This document shows positions 45,744-56,004 of a DNA stretch of 64,000 nt, one piece after another. The stretch is from assembly GCF_025996515.1 (NCBI RefSeq), contig NZ_BLRH01000035.1:372001-436000 (forward strand). Direction: 5' to 3'. The notes below the pieces were generated by a model, which saw only the letters and a list, made by a program, of their open reading frames with translations, was not told the DNA's origin and made no database searches. Position 1 is the first letter of the stretch, and the number at the start of each line of letters is the position of its first letter. Source of the stretch: Rhizohabitans arisaemae (GTDB lineage: Bacteria; Actinomycetota; Actinomycetes; Streptosporangiales; Streptosporangiaceae). Both the position numbers and the translations under genes were made by a program.

Positions 45744-46703
45744 TCAGGAGCCGGTTTCGGCCGCGACCAGGAGCCCGTCGCGTCGGACGGTTTTGGCGAA
45801 GACGAGCAGGATCGTCCCCACGAGGTAGCAGATCCCGGCCGCGAGCGACAGCCACCAGGGGAAGTCCGCGTACCAGCCCACATGCTCTTCGCGTAATCCG
45901 TCTCCCGCCCACGGGCCGTAGAGCAGGAGCATCGTGTACGGGGCGACGGCCAGCGCCACGGCGGTCCGCACGCCCGGGGTCCCGCCCCGCAGCCACACCA
46001 GGGCCGCCAGGGCCAGCGCGATCACACCGGCCGCGGCGTAGACCCACAGTTGAGCTTGGAGGGCTTCCAGGGCGCGTTCCACGACGAAGCCGTCGAGGGC
46101 CGACTCGGGGTCGGCCGCCCGCCGCCGGACGGAGGGCAGGAACACGAGCGAGCCCGCAGCGACCAGCAGCCCGCACACCGACGCCACCAGCAGACACGCG
46201 ACGGCCCACCCCGGCCCCGGCCTTCCCCGCTCCCGTACCGCCGCGCCCCCGTCCCTCGGGCGGTTCGGTCCGGTGAAGAAGAGCAGGCCCGTCCCCACGA
46301 GGTGGCAGAGCGCGGCCGCGCCCGCCAGCACCAGCACCGCGTCCCACCACAGGCCGGGCTGATCCTTGTTCGCGGCATCCGCCAGCACCAAGCCCAGGAA
46401 CAGGTAGAACGGCGCGTACGGCGCGAGCACCAGAGTCGCGACAGTCTGTACCGCCCGGGTGCCGCCCCGCCACCACGCCCAGGCAGCCACGGCGAGTGTG
46501 ATCACACCGGCCGGGGTGTACCCCCATGCGAACAACTGCAGGGAGAGGGGCACACTGTCGGGGAGTTCCACCAGGGCTTTCGGGTCACGCTGCAGGTCCA
46601 GCAGGAGAACGAGCGCGCCGATCCCGATCACCAGCTCGCACAGGGACGCCGCCAGCAGACACCCGGCGGCACGCCCCATGCGCCATGTCTTGAGGCCTTT
46701 CAT
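45744..46703 (-). CDS. duplicated membrane protein, paralogue 1
   Basis: 319-residue protein with about eight helices, made of two homologous halves of about 155 residues. WWRGGTRAVQTVATLVLAPY in half 1 matches WLRGGTPGVRTAVALAVAPY in half 2, and both halves end in a LVGTGLLFFT/LVGTILLVFA helix. It is the last of four tandem paralogues. ATG 46703 (MKGLKTWRMGRA) aligns with the start of its siblings. Its own SARP-like promoter is at 46810-46840, and the leader is about 100 nt. Function unknown. Confidence 0.82.
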   Translation of the reverse strand: MKGLKTWRMGRAAGCLLAASLCELVIGIGALVLLLDLQRDPKALVELPDSVPLSLQLFAWGYTPAGVITLAVAAWAWWRGGTRAVQTVATLVLAPYAPFYLFLGLVLADAANKDQPGLWWDAVLVLAGAAALCHLVGTGLLFFTGPNRPRDGGAAVRERGRPGPGWAVACLLVASVCGLLVAAGSLVFLPSVRRRAADPESALDGFVVERALEALQAQLWVYAAAGVIALALAALVWLRGGTPGVRTAVALAVAPYTMLLLYGPWAGDGLREEHVGWYADFPWWLSLAAGICYLVGTILLVFAKTVRRDGLLVAAETGS

Positions 46704-46809
46704 CGCCCCCACCCTTCCACGGCCGACGCGCCGCCGGTACGGCTGCCGCGCGCCGAAGCCTGAGGCCGTACCGTACCTTCGGTCTCTCATCGCATCGGGC
46801 GATCAATCG

Positions 46810-46840
46810 ATCATGGACGGGTCCACTTGGGAACCACTTG
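46810..46840 (-). promoter_or_regulatory. SARP-like repeat promoter, paralogue 1
   Basis: Reading leftward: CAAGTGG (46840-46834), 4 nt, CAAGTGG (46829-46823), 7 nt, then CATGAT as -10 (46815-46810). Two heptamers at 11-bp period close to the -10 is the classic SARP activator layout. Confidence 0.65.
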
Positions 46841-47162
46841 CGGTCGCGGCGGAGGAACGCGACTCCTCCACCGCGTGTGAACCCCTCTGAGGTCTGGGTA
46901 CGGCCTGGGCCGATTCGGCGGATGTCCGGTACGGCCCCGGCGGCCCGGACGCAGCCCGTACGACATACCTCCGGTCGAGTGACCGGGTGGCGGTGGCCGC
47001 TCAAGGCGGTGGTGCGGGCCGCCGGCCGTGTCCGTCGTGGTGGTCGAGGGCGAAAGCCCAGGTGACGAGGGAGGAAGCCGTCCGGAACGGGGTGTCGTCA
47101 CCCGCTTCCGGATCGGAACGATCACCGTTTTGGAGGGGTGGGGAGGGGTACCCACCCTGATC
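46841..47162. other. no convincing gene
   Basis: GC-rich stretch with several GTACGG motifs and no frame with a good start and bias. GGAGGGG tracts just before 47163 serve the next gene as ribosome site. Confidence 0.45.
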
Positions 47163-47429
47163 ATGAGGGACTATGAATCGCTCTCGTCGGAGGAGCTGCA
47201 CGATCTCGCGGTACGGCGGGCGGTCCGCCACGCCGACTTCGGTTTCCTGTGGGAGCTGCTCAAGGCGATACCGGCCGCCGAGGCGGTGTCCGGCCATCCG
47301 GACGCGACCACCCGCGATCTGACCAAACTCGCCGGGCTGATCAGCGACGCCATGACCTCCGGCAAAGGCGACATCGCGGAGGCGCTCCGGCCGTTCTACC
47401 TGCACTACCTGATGGAGAACGGGTCCTGA
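47163..47429 (+). CDS. small conserved-looking hypothetical protein
   Basis: 88-residue helical protein, acidic (MRDYESLSSEELHDLAVRRA ... LHYLMENGS). Start chosen at ATG 47163 because GGAGGGGTGGGGAGGGG precedes it. A run of amphipathic helices with ATTRDLTKLAGLI suggests a small regulatory or binding protein. No family was recognised. It interrupts the leftward paralogue array on the opposite strand. Confidence 0.6.
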   Translation: MRDYESLSSEELHDLAVRRAVRHADFGFLWELLKAIPAAEAVSGHPDATTRDLTKLAGLISDAMTSGKGDIAEALRPFYLHYLMENGS

Positions 47430-47434
47430 ACCGG

Positions 47435-47614
47435 CTACGCGCCCGGGAAGACCTCCCACTCGGTGCACGGCTGCAGCGCGTAGTGGTGAAAGATCATGCC
47501 GACCTGTGCCGCCGCGGAGTTGATCTGCACGACCTCGTCCCCGGGCCCGCAGACGCACTCGGGCGTGCCCTCATGTGCCACCACATCCCCTAGTGGCATC
47601 ACATGAACGTTCAT
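47435..47614 (-). CDS. 59-residue His/Cys-containing small protein
   Basis: ATG 47614 is preceded by GGGAGG 5 nt upstream; the frame ends TAG at 47437-47435. The product begins MNVHVMPLGDVVAHEGTPEC and contains CVCGPGDE and HHYALQPCTEWEVFPGA. It has three Cys and four His residues, so metal binding is possible. Resembles short actinomycete/actinophage proteins carrying an acidic C-x-C motif, but the homology is not certain. Convergent with the gene at 47163. Confidence 0.6.
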   Translation of the reverse strand: MNVHVMPLGDVVAHEGTPECVCGPGDEVVQINSAAAQVGMIFHHYALQPCTEWEVFPGA

Positions 47615-47731
47615 GAAAACCTCCCAATTGCCCCATTCTGGGATAAATACGACTTTAAGTCCTTTGGGGTGGGTTGGCTAGTCCTTGGGGTGCGGACTCG
47701 GAATCCTTGACCTTTGCCGGGTCTTCGCAGC

Positions 47732-48745
47732 TCAGTCGTCGGCCTGTTGAGAACCGGTCTCGGCTACGTGGGGGAGTGCGACACGGTGGACGGCCTTGGT
47801 GAAGACGAGGAGGGTCGTCCCCACGAGGTAGCAGATCCCGGCCGTGATCGACAGCCACCAGGGGAGGTCCGCGTACCAGCCCACATGTTCTTCGTGCAGG
47901 TACGACCACAGGCTGAAGGATGTCCACGAACCGAAGACCAGAAGCGTCGTGTACGGGGCGACGGCCAGCGCCACGACGGTCCGCACGCGCGGGCTTCCGC
48001 CTCGCCGCCACACCAGGGCGGCCAGGGCCAGCGCGATCACGCCGACCGTGGTGAATATCCACAGGTGCGCATGGAGGGTTTCCAGGGTGTCGCTCGCGTT
48101 GTAGTCGTCGACCAGGCCCGACTCGTGGTCGGCCGCCCTGCGCCGGACGGACGGCAGGAAGACGAGTGAGAACCCCGCGGCCACCAGCCCGCAGATGGAC
48201 GCGGCCAGCAGGGACGCGACGGCCCACCCCGGCCCGAGCCTTCCCCGCTCCTGTACCGCCGTGTCCCCGCCATCCGGGCGGTTCTGCGCGGTGTGGAAGA
48301 GCAGGCCCGTCCCCGCGAGCTGGCAGAGCAAAGCCGCGCCCGCCAGCACCAGCACCACGTCCCACCACAGGCTGCCATGCCAGTTCTTGTCCGTGTAAAT
48401 CGGCGCTATCAGCCCCAGGTACAGGTAGACCGGCATGGACGGCGCGAGCACCAGTGTCGCGAAAACCCGCACTCCCGGGGTCCCGCCGCGCCACCGCGCC
48501 AAGGCCGCCAAGGCCAGCCGGATCGCACCGACCACGAGGTAGGCCCAGATGTCCCAAGGCAGGGCATCCACCGTGGTGTCAATGTAGACGCCTAGACCGT
48601 CGCCGCCCGCTTCCTGGGCCTTCAGCTCCCGTCGAAGGCCGAGGAAGACGACGAGCGTGCCGGTCGCGATCAGCAGTTCGCATACGGCCGCCGTCAGCAG
48701 GCACCCCACGGCGAGCCCCGTACGCCACGTCCTGAGGCATTTCAT
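47732..48745 (-). CDS. duplicated membrane protein, paralogue 2
   Basis: 337-residue paralogue with the same two-half, eight-helix design (RWRGGTPGVRVFATLVLAPS and VWRRGGSPRVRTVVALAVAPY). It begins MKCLRTWRTGLAVGCLLTAA. The C-terminal HVGWYADLPWWLSITAGIC segment is nearly identical to that of paralogues 1 and 4. A long leader with hairpin and a SARP-like promoter (48846-48876) precede it. Confidence 0.82.
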   Translation of the reverse strand: MKCLRTWRTGLAVGCLLTAAVCELLIATGTLVVFLGLRRELKAQEAGGDGLGVYIDTTVDALPWDIWAYLVVGAIRLALAALARWRGGTPGVRVFATLVLAPSMPVYLYLGLIAPIYTDKNWHGSLWWDVVLVLAGAALLCQLAGTGLLFHTAQNRPDGGDTAVQERGRLGPGWAVASLLAASICGLVAAGFSLVFLPSVRRRAADHESGLVDDYNASDTLETLHAHLWIFTTVGVIALALAALVWRRGGSPRVRTVVALAVAPYTTLLVFGSWTSFSLWSYLHEEHVGWYADLPWWLSITAGICYLVGTTLLVFTKAVHRVALPHVAETGSQQADD

Positions 48746-48845
48746 CGCCCACGCCCCTTCCGTGATCGACACAGCGCCGGTACGGCGCCGCGCGCCGGGG
48801 CCTGAGGTCGTACCGTCGGCCCCTTGCCGTGTCGGGCAAAAATCG

Positions 48846-48876
48846 ATCATGGAGGGGTTCGCTTGGGAACCGCTTG
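48846..48876 (-). promoter_or_regulatory. SARP-like repeat promoter, paralogue 2
   Basis: Leftward CAAGCGG (48876-48870), 4 nt, CAAGCGA (48865-48859), 7 nt, CATGAT (48851-48846). The geometry is identical to the other three copies. Confidence 0.65.
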
Positions 48877-48913
48877 CGGTCGCTGCTCTTTGTCCGGGAC
48901 GAATCAACCGCGG

Positions 48914-49924
48914 TCAGTGTTGAGGACCGGGGTCGGCGGCGTGGGCGAGCTCGCCACGGCGGACGGCCTTGGTGAAGACGAGCAGGGCCGTCCCCGCGAG
49001 GTAACAGAGAGCGGCCGTGATCGACATCCACCAGGGGAAGTCCACGTACCAGCCCACGTGCTCCACCCACAGGCCGTATCCCGGCCACAGGCTTAAGGAC
49101 GCCGACGGACCGAAGAGTAGAAGCGTGGCGTACGGGGCGACGGCCAGCGCCACGAGGGTCCGTACGCGCGGGGTTCCGCCCCGCCGCCACACCAGGGCGG
49201 CCAGGGCCAGCGCGATCACGCCGGCCGCGGCGTAGACCCACAGCTGCCCCTGGAGGGCGTCCAAGGTGTTGTCCGCGAAGGAGTCGACGAGGAGGCCCGA
49301 CCGGTGGTCGGCCAGCCTGCGCCAGACGGAGGGCAGGAACACCAGGGAGGACGCCGCGACCGCCAGCCCGCACAGCGACGCGGCCAGCAGGCACGCGACG
49401 GCCCACCTCGACCGGAGTCTTTCCCGCCCTCGCCTCGTGTCCCCGATCTTCGGGCGGTTCGGTCCGGTGAAGAGGAGCAGGCCCGTCCCCACGAGATGGC
49501 AGAGCAAAGCCGCACCCGCCAGCACCAGCACCAGGTCCCACCACAGGCTTGGACGCAGTTTGTCCGCGTAATCCGTCCCCAGCAGGCCCAGGAACACGTA
49601 GAACAGCGTGTACGGGGCGAGCACCAGCACCGAGAAGACCCGTACCCCCGGCGTCCCGCCCCGCCCCGCCGAGGCCGCCAAAGCCAGCCGGATCAAACCG
49701 ACCGCGAAGAGGACCCAGATGAGCGAGGGCAGGGTGTTCACCGTTTCGTCCAGCCAGCCGTCATCACCTAGGCCGTCGTAGAGCGATGCTCTCTGGGCCT
49801 TCAGCTCCCGTTGGAAGCCCAGCAGGAGAAGGAGCGCGCCGACGCAGATCAGCAGTTCGCATACGGCCGCCGTCAGCAGGAATCCCACGGCACGTCGTGC
49901 GAGCCGCGTCATCCGACTTCCCAT
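48914..49924 (-). CDS. duplicated membrane protein, paralogue 3
   Basis: 336-residue member of the tandem family. It starts MGSRMTRLARRAVGFLLTAA, has the matched half motifs AGRGGTPGVRVFSVLVLAPY and VWRRGGTPRVRTLVALAVAPY, and ends in the WYVDFPWWMSITAALCYL helix. Its leader is short (about 17 nt). It has a SARP-like promoter at 49949-49979. Function unknown. Confidence 0.82.
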   Translation of the reverse strand: MGSRMTRLARRAVGFLLTAAVCELLICVGALLLLLGFQRELKAQRASLYDGLGDDGWLDETVNTLPSLIWVLFAVGLIRLALAASAGRGGTPGVRVFSVLVLAPYTLFYVFLGLLGTDYADKLRPSLWWDLVLVLAGAALLCHLVGTGLLLFTGPNRPKIGDTRRGRERLRSRWAVACLLAASLCGLAVAASSLVFLPSVWRRLADHRSGLLVDSFADNTLDALQGQLWVYAAAGVIALALAALVWRRGGTPRVRTLVALAVAPYATLLLFGPSASLSLWPGYGLWVEHVGWYVDFPWWMSITAALCYLAGTALLVFTKAVRRGELAHAADPGPQH

Positions 49925-49948
49925 CGCCTTCGCCCCCTCCATGAACCG

Positions 49949-49979
49949 ATCATGGAGGGGTTCGCTTGGGACCCACTTG
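49949..49979 (-). promoter_or_regulatory. SARP-like repeat promoter, paralogue 3
   Basis: Leftward CAAGTGG (49979-49973), 4 nt, CAAGCGA (49968-49962), 7 nt, CATGAT (49954-49949). Confidence 0.65.
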
Positions 49980-50222
49980 CGGCCACTGCGACGATGTCGG
50001 CGTTCATGCTTGCACCGCGAAGGCACCGGCGTGATGAGGTCGGCGTCTTCGACCGATGGGAGTGTCAGGCTTTGGCTCGTCGGTGGCGGTACCCTCGTCG
50101 CCTGCTCCGGATCAACCTCACCTGCGGACTGAAGAGGGTTCGTCGTACCCCACCGGTGGCTCACACGGGGCGTTGCCGCAGAGCGGTTCCGGTTGGTGGG
50201 GCCGCGGTAGCCGTACGGCCCG

Positions 50223-51266
50223 TCAGGCCGGGATCGTCGGTACACACTCGCCCGGGTCGGTGCCACTACGGGGCGAAGCCGGTGTTTCGGTTGCGTGGGG
50301 GCGGACGGGTTTGGTGAAGACAAGCAGGGTCGTCCCTGCGAGGTAGCAGATCCAGGCCGTGAGCGACAGCCACCAGGGCAGGTCCGCGTACCAGCCCACA
50401 TGCTCTTCGCGCAAGCCGTTTCCCGGGTCCGGGTTTATGGATGCCCACGGGCCGAAGACCAGGAGCATCGTGTACGGGGCGACGGCCAGCGCCACCAAGG
50501 TCCGCACGCCAGGGGTTCCGCCACGCCGCCACACCAGGACGGCCAGGGCCAGCGCGATCACGCCGGCCGCGGTGTAGACCCACAGGTGCGCATGGAGGGC
50601 GTCCAGGGTGTGGCTCACGTTGTAGTCGTCGACCAGGCCCGACTCGTGGTCGGCCGCCCTGCGCCGGACGGACGGCAGGAAGACGAGTGAGAACCCCGCG
50701 GCCACCAGCCCGCACAGCGACGCGGCCAGCAGGCACGCGACGACCCACCCCGGCCCGAGCCTTCCCCGCTCCCGCCCCGCCGTGTCCCCGCCCTTCGGCC
50801 GGTTCGGCGCGGTGCGGAAGAGCAGGCCCGTCCCCGCGAGCTGGCAGAGCAAAGCCGCACCCGCCAGCACCAGCACCAGGTCCCACCACAGGCTTTGATG
50901 GTAGTACGAGTCCACGTAAATCGTCCCGAGCAGGGCCAGGTGCGGGTAGACCAGCATGGATGGCGCGAGTACCAGCACGGCGAAGACCCGGACCCCCGGT
51001 GTCCCGCCGCGCCGCCACGCCAAGGCCGCCACGGCCAGTCGGATCGCACCGACCACGGTGCAGCCCCAGATGAACCAGGGCAGGGCGTTCAGCGTGAAGC
51101 CAAGGAAGGTGGCAACATCGCCCTCGCTCGCTATCTGGGCCTTCGCCTCCCGTTGAAGGCCCAGGTAGACGACGAGTGTGCCGATCACCATCAGCAGGTC
51201 GCATAAGGCCGCCGTCAGCAGGCACCCGACGGCGCGTCCCATGCGCCACGTTTCTCGGCTCCGCAT
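50223..51266 (-). CDS. duplicated membrane protein, paralogue 4
   Basis: 347-residue first member of the leftward series, beginning MRSRETWRMGRAVGCLLTAA. The two halves again match (AWRRGGTPGVRVFAVLVLAP and VWRRGGTPGVRTLVALAVAPY). The chain extends about 20 residues past the family end (ETPASPRSGTDPGE). Short leader of about 17 nt; SARP-like promoter at 51291-51321. Confidence 0.82.
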   Translation of the reverse strand: MRSRETWRMGRAVGCLLTAALCDLLMVIGTLVVYLGLQREAKAQIASEGDVATFLGFTLNALPWFIWGCTVVGAIRLAVAALAWRRGGTPGVRVFAVLVLAPSMLVYPHLALLGTIYVDSYYHQSLWWDLVLVLAGAALLCQLAGTGLLFRTAPNRPKGGDTAGRERGRLGPGWVVACLLAASLCGLVAAGFSLVFLPSVRRRAADHESGLVDDYNVSHTLDALHAHLWVYTAAGVIALALAVLVWRRGGTPGVRTLVALAVAPYTMLLVFGPWASINPDPGNGLREEHVGWYADLPWWLSLTAWICYLAGTTLLVFTKPVRPHATETPASPRSGTDPGECVPTIPA

Positions 51267-51290
51267 CGCCCACACCTCTTCCACGGATCG

Positions 51291-51321
51291 ATCATGGAAG
51301 AGGCTGCTTGCGGAACACTTG
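51291..51321 (-). promoter_or_regulatory. SARP-like repeat promoter, paralogue 4
   Basis: Leftward CAAGTGT (51321-51315), 4 nt, CAAGCAG (51310-51304), 7 nt, CATGAT (51296-51291). This is the most diverged copy, but spacing is exact. Confidence 0.55.
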
Positions 51322-52522: not shown

Positions 52523-52974
52523 AGATACCCCTCCCCGTGTGACAGAGATCAACATACGCCCAAAGCCACCCCTTGGCACCTATTTGTCGTACGACGTGAG
52601 CTGCGCGACGCTCCGTTCACCACTGGGAAGGGAGGCATCCGCCATACGAGGGATCGCCCCGCTGATCGTCGTTTGGGCACGTGGGCACGCAGGATTGCCG
52701 GGTAGTGGCTCCATCGAGGCTTGGACGCCGAGACGAGGGAACCACTCCTGTGGATGGATGCCCAACGTGAGCGGGGCAGCAAATGTAACGCGGTGCTAGT
52801 TACATTTGAGGGCTCGCTGGTTACATTTCAGCGCTTGCGACGTCGGCGGCGCTCGGGTCCCGGGGGTGCAAGATTGGTCGTGTCATGCCGTACGGGCATG
52901 CTTTTGTCGGTCTCGGGTGGGTATCGACCTTCCGCGGGATGCCCGAGCAGCTCCCGATGCGGAAGGAGCCGACC
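52523..52974. other. divergent regulatory region before the RiPP locus
   Basis: No protein gene is recognised. The notable content is the GTTACATTT operator array at 52781-52828. GGAAGGAG lies just ahead of the precursor ATG at 52975. Confidence 0.55.
52781..52828. promoter_or_regulatory. AAATGTAAC operator array
   Basis: AAATGTAAC (52781-52789) and GTTACATTT (52799-52807) form a perfect 9-bp inverted repeat with a 9-nt centre. A third GTTACATTT at 52820-52828 repeats the second with a 21-bp offset, two helical turns. These AT-rich words stand out in GC-rich DNA, about 150-195 nt upstream of the precursor gene. They are likely sites of an unidentified repressor or activator. Confidence 0.65.
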
Positions 52975-53262
52975 ATGAGCAGCCACTACGCGGAGGAGAT
53001 GCGGAGAAAGGCCGAGGAGATCCTGTCCCGGGCGCGGGAGGACTCCGCGTTCGCCGACCGGCTCAAAGCCGATCCGCGTGCGGTGCTCGCGGAGATCGGG
53101 GTGCCGGAGAACGCCCGGCTGGTCGACCTCCCGGTGGTGCTGCCCCAGGAGTGCGAACAGACGTGTGTGGACTTCACCTGCATCTTCACCCCGTCGCTCT
53201 GCCCGGAGACCTGCCTGCCGTTCGGGACCATCGTGTTCTGCGATGTCGCCACCCACGTCTGA
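52975..53262 (+). CDS. NHLP-leader lanthipeptide-type precursor peptide
   Basis: 95-residue RiPP precursor. Residues 1-58 resemble the nitrile hydratase-like leader (NHLP) family: helical EEMRRKAEEILSRA, AFADRLKADPRAVLAEIGVP and the terminal LVDLPVVLPQ. The putative core from about residue 59 has six Cys (60, 64, 69, 76, 80, 89) and seven Ser/Thr, ending ATHV. ATG 52975 was chosen on GGAAGGAG. The LanL synthetase gene starts 36 nt after the stop, so the core is presumably dehydrated and cyclised by it. The cleavage site is inferred only. Confidence 0.85.
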   Translation: MSSHYAEEMRRKAEEILSRAREDSAFADRLKADPRAVLAEIGVPENARLVDLPVVLPQECEQTCVDFTCIFTPSLCPETCLPFGTIVFCDVATHV

Positions 53263-53298
53263 TTCGGTCGCAGGTCCGGACCGCTCCGCGTATGCCCG

Positions 53299-56004
53299 AT
53301 GAGTGCGGGTACGGCCGAGGTTCCCCTGCTTCCCGTCGTCCTCGCGGCGCTGGCCGGCGCTCCGGACCGGGACGCCTGGGAGGCCGTGCGCTGGGAACAC
53401 GGGAACGGCTTCTGGATCCGCGTCCGCCACCTCGCCACGCGGGTGCCGTACCAGGGCTGGAAAATCCACGTGTCGAGCTGGGCGGGTTCCGCGGAGGACG
53501 TACTCCGGCGGGCGCTGGCGGTGTTGATCGGGGAGCGGGCGACCTTCAAGGTCGCCGGATCGAACGCCGTGCTCCACTACCTCAACTCCGGTAGGGGAGG
53601 GGCGAGCCAGGTAGGTAAGTTCATCACGGTCTATCCACAAGACGATGGGCATGCGGTACGGCTCGCGCGGGCCCTTGACGACGCCGTCGGCGGGCTGCGG
53701 GGACCCGGGATCCCCTCGGACCGGCCGGTACGGGCGGGCAGCCTGGTCCACTACCGCTACGGCGCCTTCGTCGGGGGACGGGAGTTGCAGACGCCGATCG
53801 GTGAGATCGTCTCCGCCCTGGTCGACGGCGACGGGCGGCTCGTCCCGGATTCGCGTCAGGAGTTCTACGTCGCGCCCGCCTGGGTGGCCGACCCGTTCCT
53901 CGACGCCAGGGTCTCGGCCGACCCGCCGGAACCCAGCCCGCTGATCGACGGGCGCTACCTGGTGCTGGGCACGCTGCACCGGTCGCAGAGTTCAAGCGTC
54001 CACCTGGGCGTCGACCTGGACGCCAAGACACGCGTCGTGGTCAAGCGGGCCCGGCGCGACAGCCTGATGGGCATGGACGGCCGGGACGGCCGCGACCGGC
54101 TCCGCACCGAGGCCGCGCTGCTGCGCCGCCTGGACCGGGTGGCCGCCGTCCCGCGCGTCCGCGACCTCGTCGCCGCGGACGACGAGGTCATGCTGGTCCT
54201 GGAGGACGTCCCCGGCATGACCCTGGAGGAGCGGGTGGCCGAGCTCCAGCGGTACGGCCGTCGCCTCCCGGTCGAACTCGCGGTCCGATGGGGGCGCGCG
54301 CTCGCCGCGACGCTGCACGACGTCCACCGGGCGGGGGTCGTGCACAGCGACGTCAAACCGGCCAACATCCTGGTCTCCTCCGACGAGTCGCTCCACCTGA
54401 TCGACTTCAACATCGCGGTGGATCCGGCCGAGGAGGCCGGACGGGCCGGCGACCGGGGCGGGACCCGGGGATACGTGTCCCCCCAGCAGCTGGCGGGCGA
54501 GGCGGCCACCGTCGCCGACGACGTCTACGGACTCGGCTGCGTCCTCTACTACGCCGTCACCGGCGCGCAGCCGTCGCACACCCCCACCGGTGCCCGGCCG
54601 CGTCCGATCTCCCTGCTCAACCCCGCGGTTCCCGCCGGTTTCCGCGAGGTCGTGGACCGTTGCCTGGACGCGGACCCGGCGCTTCGCTTCCCGTCCATGG
54701 CCGACCTGGGCCGGGCGCTCGCCGCCGGCCACGGGTCCCCGGCGGCCGACGAGGTCCCCGCGGAGGCGGCCGAACGACGTCGATCCCGGGAACTGGCGAG
54801 CCGTCTCGCCGAGACCCTGTGCGCCGCCGGGCGACCCAGTCCCCACGGCGACGGGTTGGTCTGGCTCAGCGCCCACGCCTCGGGCCGGGGCACGCTCTCC
54901 CGCGACCTGTGCCTGGGCGGCGCGGGAGCCGTACTCGCGCTGGCCGAGCTGACCGCCGAGTTCGGCCGCCCCGAGCTCGCGGACGCGCTCGCGGCGGGCG
55001 CACGCTGGCTGGAGATCGCCCCGGCCCCGGGCGGCGACCCGCTGCCGGGGCTCTACGTCGGCGAGTCGGGCATCGGCGCCGCGCTGCTCCGGGCCGGACA
55101 GGTCCTCGGGGACGATCGGCTGGTCGACGCGGCGCTGGCGCGCGGCCGGGCGGTCGCCGCGCTGCCGCACGCCTCCCCCGACCTCTACAACGGAACCGCC
55201 GGCCGACTCCGATTCCACCTCCTGCTGTACGACGCCACCGGCGAAGACGAATGCCTGCGTGCGGCTCGGGCCGCGGCCGACGTCGTGGCCGGACGCGCCG
55301 AACGGTCCGCCGCCGGCGGGTGCTTCTGGACGTTCCCCGACGGTTACGGGGAGATGAGCGGGCACGCGTATCTCGGCTACGCCCACGGAGCGGCGGGGAT
55401 CGCCGACGCGCTGATCGATCTCGTCGAGATCACGGGGGATACCCGCCACGTTCCCGTGGTGGCGGGCGCCGCGGCCTGGATCGCCGATTCGGCGGTCGAC
55501 GTGCTGGACGACGGACAGGGACTGGGCTGGCCCGCCCGGCCGGGGACGGCGCCGTCGGTCCCGTTCTGGTGTCACGGCGCCGCGGGCATCGGCCACTTCC
55601 TGCTCCGGAGCGCGGCCCGCGGCCTGGTGCCGGGTGCGCGGGACTTGGCGGAACGGGCTGCGCTCGCCACGGCCTGGGGAGCGCGCTTCGCCGGTCCGAG
55701 CCGGTGCCACGGGCTCGCCGGCAACATCGAGTTTCTCCTGGACGCGTACCAGGCGACAGGTGAGGTACGGCGCCTGCGTGAGGCCCGCGTGCTCGCCCGG
55801 TTGCTCGACGCGTTCGCCGTGGACCGTGACGGGCGGCTCGCCTGGTCCGCCGACGTGCCCGACCTGATCACCCCCGACTACATGGTCGGCTATCCGGGGA
55901 TCGCGCTCACCCTGCTCCGGCTCGCCGACCCGGACCGGCGGCCCGGCCAGCTCGGCCTGGCCGGGTTCCGGCACGCCGCGGCTCCCGCCGGGCCCGCCCG
56001 CTGA
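53299..56004 (+). CDS. class IV lanthipeptide synthetase (LanL-like)
   Basis: 901-residue three-domain enzyme. The N-terminal lyase domain has GWKIHVSS near residue 54 and HYRYGAF near 152. The Ser/Thr kinase domain has VVKRARRD near 245, HSDVKPANI near 349 and DFN near 369. The LanC-type cyclase has AHGAAGI near 694, WCHGAAG near 757 and RCHGLAG near 802. The two Cys and a His of the zinc site are present, which separates class IV (LanL) from zinc-less class III (LanKC). It phosphorylates, eliminates and cyclises Ser/Thr with Cys in a precursor, here presumably the one encoded 36 nt upstream. No transporter or protease gene is adjacent. Confidence 0.93.
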   Translation: MSAGTAEVPLLPVVLAALAGAPDRDAWEAVRWEHGNGFWIRVRHLATRVPYQGWKIHVSSWAGSAEDVLRRALAVLIGERATFKVAGSNAVLHYLNSGRGGASQVGKFITVYPQDDGHAVRLARALDDAVGGLRGPGIPSDRPVRAGSLVHYRYGAFVGGRELQTPIGEIVSALVDGDGRLVPDSRQEFYVAPAWVADPFLDARVSADPPEPSPLIDGRYLVLGTLHRSQSSSVHLGVDLDAKTRVVVKRARRDSLMGMDGRDGRDRLRTEAALLRRLDRVAAVPRVRDLVAADDEVMLVLEDVPGMTLEERVAELQRYGRRLPVELAVRWGRALAATLHDVHRAGVVHSDVKPANILVSSDESLHLIDFNIAVDPAEEAGRAGDRGGTRGYVSPQQLAGEAATVADDVYGLGCVLYYAVTGAQPSHTPTGARPRPISLLNPAVPAGFREVVDRCLDADPALRFPSMADLGRALAAGHGSPAADEVPAEAAERRRSRELASRLAETLCAAGRPSPHGDGLVWLSAHASGRGTLSRDLCLGGAGAVLALAELTAEFGRPELADALAAGARWLEIAPAPGGDPLPGLYVGESGIGAALLRAGQVLGDDRLVDAALARGRAVAALPHASPDLYNGTAGRLRFHLLLYDATGEDECLRAARAAADVVAGRAERSAAGGCFWTFPDGYGEMSGHAYLGYAHGAAGIADALIDLVEITGDTRHVPVVAGAAAWIADSAVDVLDDGQGLGWPARPGTAPSVPFWCHGAAGIGHFLLRSAARGLVPGARDLAERAALATAWGARFAGPSRCHGLAGNIEFLLDAYQATGEVRRLREARVLARLLDAFAVDRDGRLAWSADVPDLITPDYMVGYPGIALTLLRLADPDRRPGQLGLAGFRHAAAPAGPAR

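Follow-up and report, generated by a model that had tools for sequence, protein, structure and literature searches.

The established partners of proteusin-type leaders are YcaO, radical SAM, halogenase, and class II (LanM) enzymes. Nitrile hydratase-like leader peptides (NHLPs) are usually paired with TOMM, radical SAM, or LanM enzymes (PMC2887384, PMC7268733), and a large lanthipeptide survey names them for class II only (PMC7268733). Leaders of the TIGR04351, Os1348, and Frankia types belong to the same clan and serve azole (TOMM) and orphan RiPPs. The study reporting the NMR structure of the proteusin MprE7 (8TB1) relates the proteusin nucleus to the nitrile hydratase and borosin folds (PMC10858898). 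For class II enzymes, the structured nucleus of these leaders has been described as receiving inserted enzyme side chains (PMC12715784); the brominase SrpI needs just the disordered, Gly-Gly-ending tail (PMC10858898). An NHLP leader also serves a nonstandard dehydrating enzyme in the dehydrazoles (carnazolamide), which are azole-dependent and employ a LanM-dehydratase/class III cyclase hybrid with DUF4135 and YcaO, and no lyase/kinase LanL (PMC10676384).

Few class IV lanthipeptide products have been characterized. The SflA/CuvL-type systems (CuvL, PDB: 8car/8cav) combine a lyase-kinase-LanC enzyme with a short SflA-type precursor. In ALQxL-type systems (e.g., Kitasatospora sp. NBC_00039), the gene for a LanL with CHG zinc motifs adjoins that of an ALQxL-family precursor of ~39 amino acids. 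Here, we describe a locus in a 64,000-nt stretch of the Rhizohabitans arisaemae genome (hereafter, the window) where an NHLP-related precursor gene lies beside a class IV synthetase gene (Table 1). We regard this pairing as a new subfamily, genuine though rare, of peptide pathways with predicted ring formation; the locus is likely a minimal lanthipeptide pathway in which a class IV synthetase acts on a dedicated precursor of NHLP descent.

Table 1. Coordinates of the features of the precursor–synthetase locus (positions in the window)
Feature	Coordinates	Strand	Basis
LanA-type precursor, 95 aa	52975..53262	+	ORF, ATG 52975 to TGA 53262
Ribosome-binding site AAGGAG, 8 nt 5' of the precursor ATG	52961..52966	+	Sequence
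Predicted three-helix bundle, leader residues 2-40	52978..53094	+	AlphaFold2 blocks, pLDDT 69-86
Presumed core ECEQTCVDFTCIFTPSLCPETCLPFGTIVFCDVATHV, 6 Cys and 7 Ser/Thr	53149..53259	+	Motif common with G392 and G795 cores
Class IV lanthionine synthetase (LanL), 901 aa	53299..56004	+	NF038150 above cut-off; tree; Foldseek
Lyase domain RamC_N, residues 33-204	53395..53910	+	PF25816, E=3e-50
Ser/Thr kinase domain, residues 230-430 (K249, E271, HSD351, N356, D369-F-N)	53986..54588	+	PF00069, E=1.4e-26
LanC cyclase domain, residues 535-880, zinc ligands C758, C803, H804	54901..55938	+	PF05147, E=1.9e-31

The initial annotation of this DNA, made from sequence alone, described a 95-residue precursor with six Cys and seven Ser/Thr in its core, and both the coordinates and the residue counts agree with the open reading frame. 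The full precursor, MSSHYAEEMRRKAEEILSRAREDSAFADRLKADPRAVLAEIGVPENARLVDLPVVLPQECEQTCVDFTCIFTPSLCPETCLPFGTIVFCDVATHV, splits at a putative boundary into a leader of about residues 1-58 and a Cys/Thr-rich core of about residues 59-95. Cys residues occupy positions 60, 64, 69, 76, 80, and 89, and core Ser/Thr positions 63, 68, 72, 74, 79, 85, and 93, giving Thr-Cys pairs at 63-64, 68-69, and 79-80. The enzyme ATG (53299) follows the precursor stop codon after a gap of 36 nt, and third-position GC content is 0.92 for the precursor versus 0.90 for the enzyme.

Co-occurrence of this leader type with class IV enzymes, which the annotation had proposed as a check, was found at three further loci. Searching with the enzyme across 346 genomes of the phylum retrieved two enzymes 49-51% identical to it, and 346 genomes of the class yielded one further clade member. 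These three relatives (G646, G392, and G795; 47-51% identical) come from three other families, representing two other classes and one other order. A precursor gene with this leader type adjoins the clade LanL gene in all four genomes, upstream in the window and G646 and downstream in G392 and G795. The G646 precursor (107 aa) carries a core of approximately GCWQCYMSYYWYWDYYSQTYYE; that of G392 (101 aa, its gene starting 21 nt after that of the enzyme) carries CTDTTCWSSDCPGTCYLTTITD; and that of G795 (99 aa, directly downstream) carries CTDTTCWSSDCPGTCYLTIITD. Across two classes, the window core shares the pattern C-x-D-x-T-C...S-x-C-P-x-T-C with the cores of G392 and G795 (CTDTTCWSSDCPGTCYLT). 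G392 encodes a second, divergent LanL with an NHLP-like precursor 28 nt upstream (core DCTITSLTGCCVTLI; leader match weak, E about 0.02). The four G392 genes form a cassette (L113:2258-8289, minus strand) of NHLP-like precursor, divergent LanL, clade LanL, and NHLP-like precursor, in which the LanLs lie head to tail, each with its own precursor at the outer end. On the G646 contig, an S8 subtilase (L112:7708-8685, plus strand) lies ~4 kb after the clade LanL and is a possible leader protease.

The precursor and LanL might be neighbors rather than partners, with the precursor serving another RiPP enzyme (azole or radical SAM) or being a relic. The usual association of NHLP leaders with TOMM, radical SAM, or LanM enzymes (PMC2887384, PMC7268733) would favor this reading, as would the other LanL and LanKC genes in the window genome. 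We judge it very improbable, given that adjacency holds in four of four clade members, whichever of the two gene orders they show, that the gaps are just 36 nt in the window and 21 nt in G392, that the second LanL of G392 also adjoins a precursor, and that the core motif is common to two classes. In the neighbors scanned, moreover, we saw no additional RiPP enzyme. Upstream of the precursor lies an ADP-ribosylglycohydrolase gene on the opposite strand, and downstream of the LanL a gene for a protein of 666 aa that lacks any informative match in Pfam. Among the immediate neighbors scanned, we recognized neither a protease nor a transporter nor a second RiPP enzyme.

The enzyme was annotated as bearing lyase, kinase, and zinc-site-complete LanC domains, which profile searches bear out: PF25816, PF00069, and PF05147 occur in that order in one chain, each well over its cut-off, and C758, C803, and H804 are all present within a WC758HG and C803H804G triad. 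Grouping with the zinc-less class III enzymes, which would have spoken against this assignment, was not what we obtained. The window enzyme scores 679.8 bits against the LanL model NF038150 (curated cut-off, 650) versus 390.7 bits against the LanKC model NF038151, below the curated cut-off of 575; the clade enzymes of G646 and G392 are likewise over the LanL and under the LanKC cut-off. All four clade enzymes keep the zinc and LanC motifs unchanged, and the zinc motifs were not found in the LanKC proteins gathered for comparison. A maximum-likelihood tree (IQ-TREE, 15 LanKC rows as outgroup) places the window enzyme among the LanLs (100/100), and the four clade enzymes form a LanL branch of their own (100/99), apart from the SflA-type and ALQxL-containing groups; support is weak (86/67) for the order in which the LanL groups branch, including the placement of the clade against the SflA-type branch. 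By sequence, the window enzyme is thus assigned as a class IV lanthionine synthetase, with predicted catalysis on its partner precursor.

Foldseek returned CuvL (8cav/8car, E=1.6e-34) as the best match of the window enzyme, and CuvL is also its closest PDB structure by sequence. Reading 8car as a class III structure from its CQG/CCG motifs was considered and rejected, since the fold search identifies it as CuvL. Despite the common lyase-kinase-LanC architecture, the SflA/CuvL-type enzymes are about 27-34% identical to the window enzyme, fall on a separate branch, and (the SflA-type group and CuvL) carry CQG/CCG zinc motifs where the window enzyme has CHG/CHG; their short SflA-type precursors are not NHLP-like. 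ALQxL-type LanLs have CHG motifs and an adjacent precursor, as in the window, but sit on a different branch from the window clade. Among the loci collected, the SflA-type LanLs (L044-L082) have CQG/CCG motifs and a strongly supported branch of their own.

Turning to the leader, its sole NCBIfam matches are to NHLP-clan models, all below the curated cut-offs: TIGR04351 (E=5.8e-6), NF038399 (E=4.1e-5), TIGR03793 (E=5.6e-4), and TIGR04509 (E=0.01). Clan families of the TIGR04351, Os1348, and Frankia types are the best family matches of the clade leaders. Models of the SflA and ALQxL families did not match the window precursor; an SflA-type control matched SflA, below the cut-off. Because it scores 19.7 bits against TIGR03793 versus a curated cut-off of 50.9 bits, we call the leader NHLP-related rather than a member of TIGR03793, and because neither the Gly-Gly/Gly-Ala leader end nor the LXXXXL tail is present in the sequence, it is not an NHLP in the strict sense. 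No C39-type exporter was recognized among the neighboring ORFs listed and the proteins scanned. The nitrile hydratase-like leader proposed by the initial annotation therefore holds in part: the matches are exclusively to the NHLP clan, but they fall under every curated cut-off, and the Gly-Gly end and C39 exporter are missing. Nor does the leader score as one of the ordinary class III/IV type, and the SflA- and ALQxL-type precursors beside other LanLs differ from that of the window. When 347 genomes of the order were searched by plain protein comparison, the leader matched just two sequences outside its own genome, both genuine NHLPs; one, in a YcaO azole cluster (G026), is over the TIGR04351 cut-off and the other is over that of TIGR03793. 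The G026 cluster (L102:2874-7498, plus strand) encodes YcaO and nitroreductase-like proteins and two NHLP-clan precursors, one of them the sequence over the TIGR04351 cut-off. Compared with TIGR04351-type systems, no YcaO or dehydrogenase gene was seen beside the clade precursors, and the window, G392, and G795 cores are Cys/Thr-rich with the pattern CxDxTC...SxCPxTC.

An AlphaFold2 model of the leader, built from an alignment of four sequences, contains helices at residues 2-22, 24-32, and 34-40, with the remainder disordered. With this model as the query, Foldseek gave just three matches (E values up to 10). One is the proteusin structure 8tb1, at an rmsd of 0.6 over 38 columns; the others are the nitrile hydratase 7qoy and the borosin methyltransferase complex 7twm. 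The predicted helices fit the α1-α3 nucleus of MprE7 and of the nitrile hydratase α subunit; none of the matches is significant alone (E=4.6-9.7), but these are the very folds related to one another in the 8TB1 study (PMC10858898). On sequence grounds, the leader appears to descend from the NHLP/proteusin clan without being a standard NHLP. Class III/IV leaders probably bind as helices too, and the likeness could instead reflect convergence of short amphipathic helices in an ordinary class IV leader. Consistent with convergence are the sub-cut-off scores; the Foldseek E values and the weak resemblance of the G392 and G795 leaders to NHLP models (E about 0.004-0.02; the best match of the G392 leader is IniB_NTERM) also weigh against NHLP descent. 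We nevertheless hold convergence to be unlikely: all matches outside the genome in the 347-genome search are genuine NHLP-clan leaders, the structure search gives a proteusin and a nitrile hydratase first, and the precursors at other LanLs of the order are of other types, none of which was found by the leader model described below.

That leader model was built from the three relatives with the window left out. In a set of 15,261 stop-to-stop ORFs drawn from the loci assembled for this search, it found the window leader at E=6.5e-11, tying it to the G646 leader, which matches NF038399 (E=9.6e-7) and Pfam Frankia_peptide (E=1.6e-6). Given this value and the recurrence at three further loci, the NHLP-LanL pairing is more than chance. 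The next real matches were the NHLP genes of G026 and, weakly, the second precursor of G392. No precursor was found by this model at ~90 other LanL loci, some with 1.5-kb flanks from which distant precursors could escape. A search of the order with the LanL model, in which just two candidates were scored in each genome, did not list the window enzyme; beside other LanLs of the order, precursors are ~40-65 aa and of the SflA, EPRDAG, or ALQxL type, or none lies nearby. Across 267 genomes of the class, a model of the full precursor had strong matches in the window genome (G000) and G795 only. Its matches in ten other genomes of the class (E=0.0025-0.0085), two of which (G581 and G730) were inspected, were set aside as chance-like by E value. 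From the specificity of the leader model across LanL loci and of the precursor model across the 267 genomes, we conclude that this leader type accompanies the LanL clade and that each of them is rare.

The clade is also sporadically distributed. Searches with the enzyme found nothing above 38% identity in 201 genomes of the family, and on plasmids nothing above ~38% identity and no match covering 80% of the query. No further members emerged from class-wide searches around G646 (39 genomes) and G392 (24 genomes) or an order-wide search around G795 (35 genomes), and a DNA-pattern scan of contigs for relatives returned just two unrelated kinase loci. By eye, the G795 locus lies among transposase-like genes, and the G392 contig carries a recombinase-like gene; these mobile-type neighbors and the sporadic distribution fit horizontal transfer, of which the tree alone is no proof.

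The annotation remarked that NHLP leaders usually accompany LanM or radical/YcaO enzymes rather than LanL; published surveys name class II and TOMM partners. It further supposed a subclass described little, if at all, and we likewise found no published NHLP-LanL family or pairing in the open-access literature searched, an absence that is no proof. Relative to NHLP-LanM systems, which also join a nitrile hydratase-derived leader to a Ser/Thr/Cys core for lanthionine formation, the window locus has a LanL, its leader lacks the Gly-Gly end, and the flanks examined contain no C39 exporter.

In the proposed pathway, the helical leader would be held by the LanL while the kinase domain phosphorylates core Ser/Thr residues with a nucleotide triphosphate. 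The RamC-type lyase domain would then eliminate phosphate to give Dha/Dhb, to which the zinc LanC domain would add core Cys thiols, forming (methyl)lanthionine rings. Like other class III/IV systems, the pathway would depend for its finished product on a protease and exporter encoded elsewhere. Since six Cys and seven Ser/Thr are available in the core, up to six rings are possible. Adjacent Thr-Cys pairs, initially considered unusual for lanthionine rings, count neither for nor against ring formation; such pairs recur in the cores of two relatives, and mersacidin contains a ring formed between adjacent residues.

The enzyme might instead just dehydrate or phosphorylate its substrate, with few or no lanthionine rings formed. 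Its kinase motifs read HSD/DFN instead of HRD/DFG, Thr-Cys pairs are awkward for small rings, and the G646 core has just two Cys. Against these points, Cys residues abound in the other three cores, every clade enzyme retains its zinc ligands and LanC motifs, and the kinase keeps its metal-binding and catalytic Asp residues; K249, E271, D351, N356, and D369 are shared without exception by the clade enzymes and the second LanL of G392. We therefore give an outcome with few or no rings little credence and favor the full route to (methyl)lanthionine. The analysis establishes the two genes, the class of the enzyme, its domains with their catalytic and zinc residues, the relatedness of the leader to NHLPs, and the recurrence of the pair in four genomes; joint action of precursor and LanL, the leader binding mode, ring formation, ring number and pattern, processing, export, and the biological role of the product are inferred.

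The three-helix nucleus is kept, the Gly-Gly/LXXXXL tail is absent, and no C39 exporter lies nearby; for these reasons, the folded nucleus is probably what the LanL recognizes, with the protease and exporter supplied from outside the locus. A tentative extension, to which we assign slightly less than even chances, is that these are "class IV proteusins" in which the LanL swapped recognition of a short, unstructured leader for that of a folded NHLP nucleus and the tail was shed, the reverse of SrpI. A clade of zinc-type LanLs paired with this kind of leader would mean that the kinase/lyase pathway to dehydroamino acids has adopted the folded proteusin leader too, and its two genes would make a compact system in which to study the reading of a folded leader by a LanL. 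The CxDxTC...SxCPxTC cores are unlike those of the class IV precursors compared here, and mining tools that expect short class IV leaders probably miss such precursors.

Two further observations concern the same genome. Near position 977570 of contig C34 (L148:433-3099, minus strand), a weakly NHLP-like 103-aa ORF lies between two radical SAM-type genes. Within the window, positions 45744-51300 (minus strand) hold a tandem array of about four paralogous genes for multi-pass membrane proteins, one of which (45747-46790) has no Pfam match; upstream of the array is a kdp-like operon that includes KdpD/KdpE-like genes at ~34.6-42.7 kb, recognized by eye.
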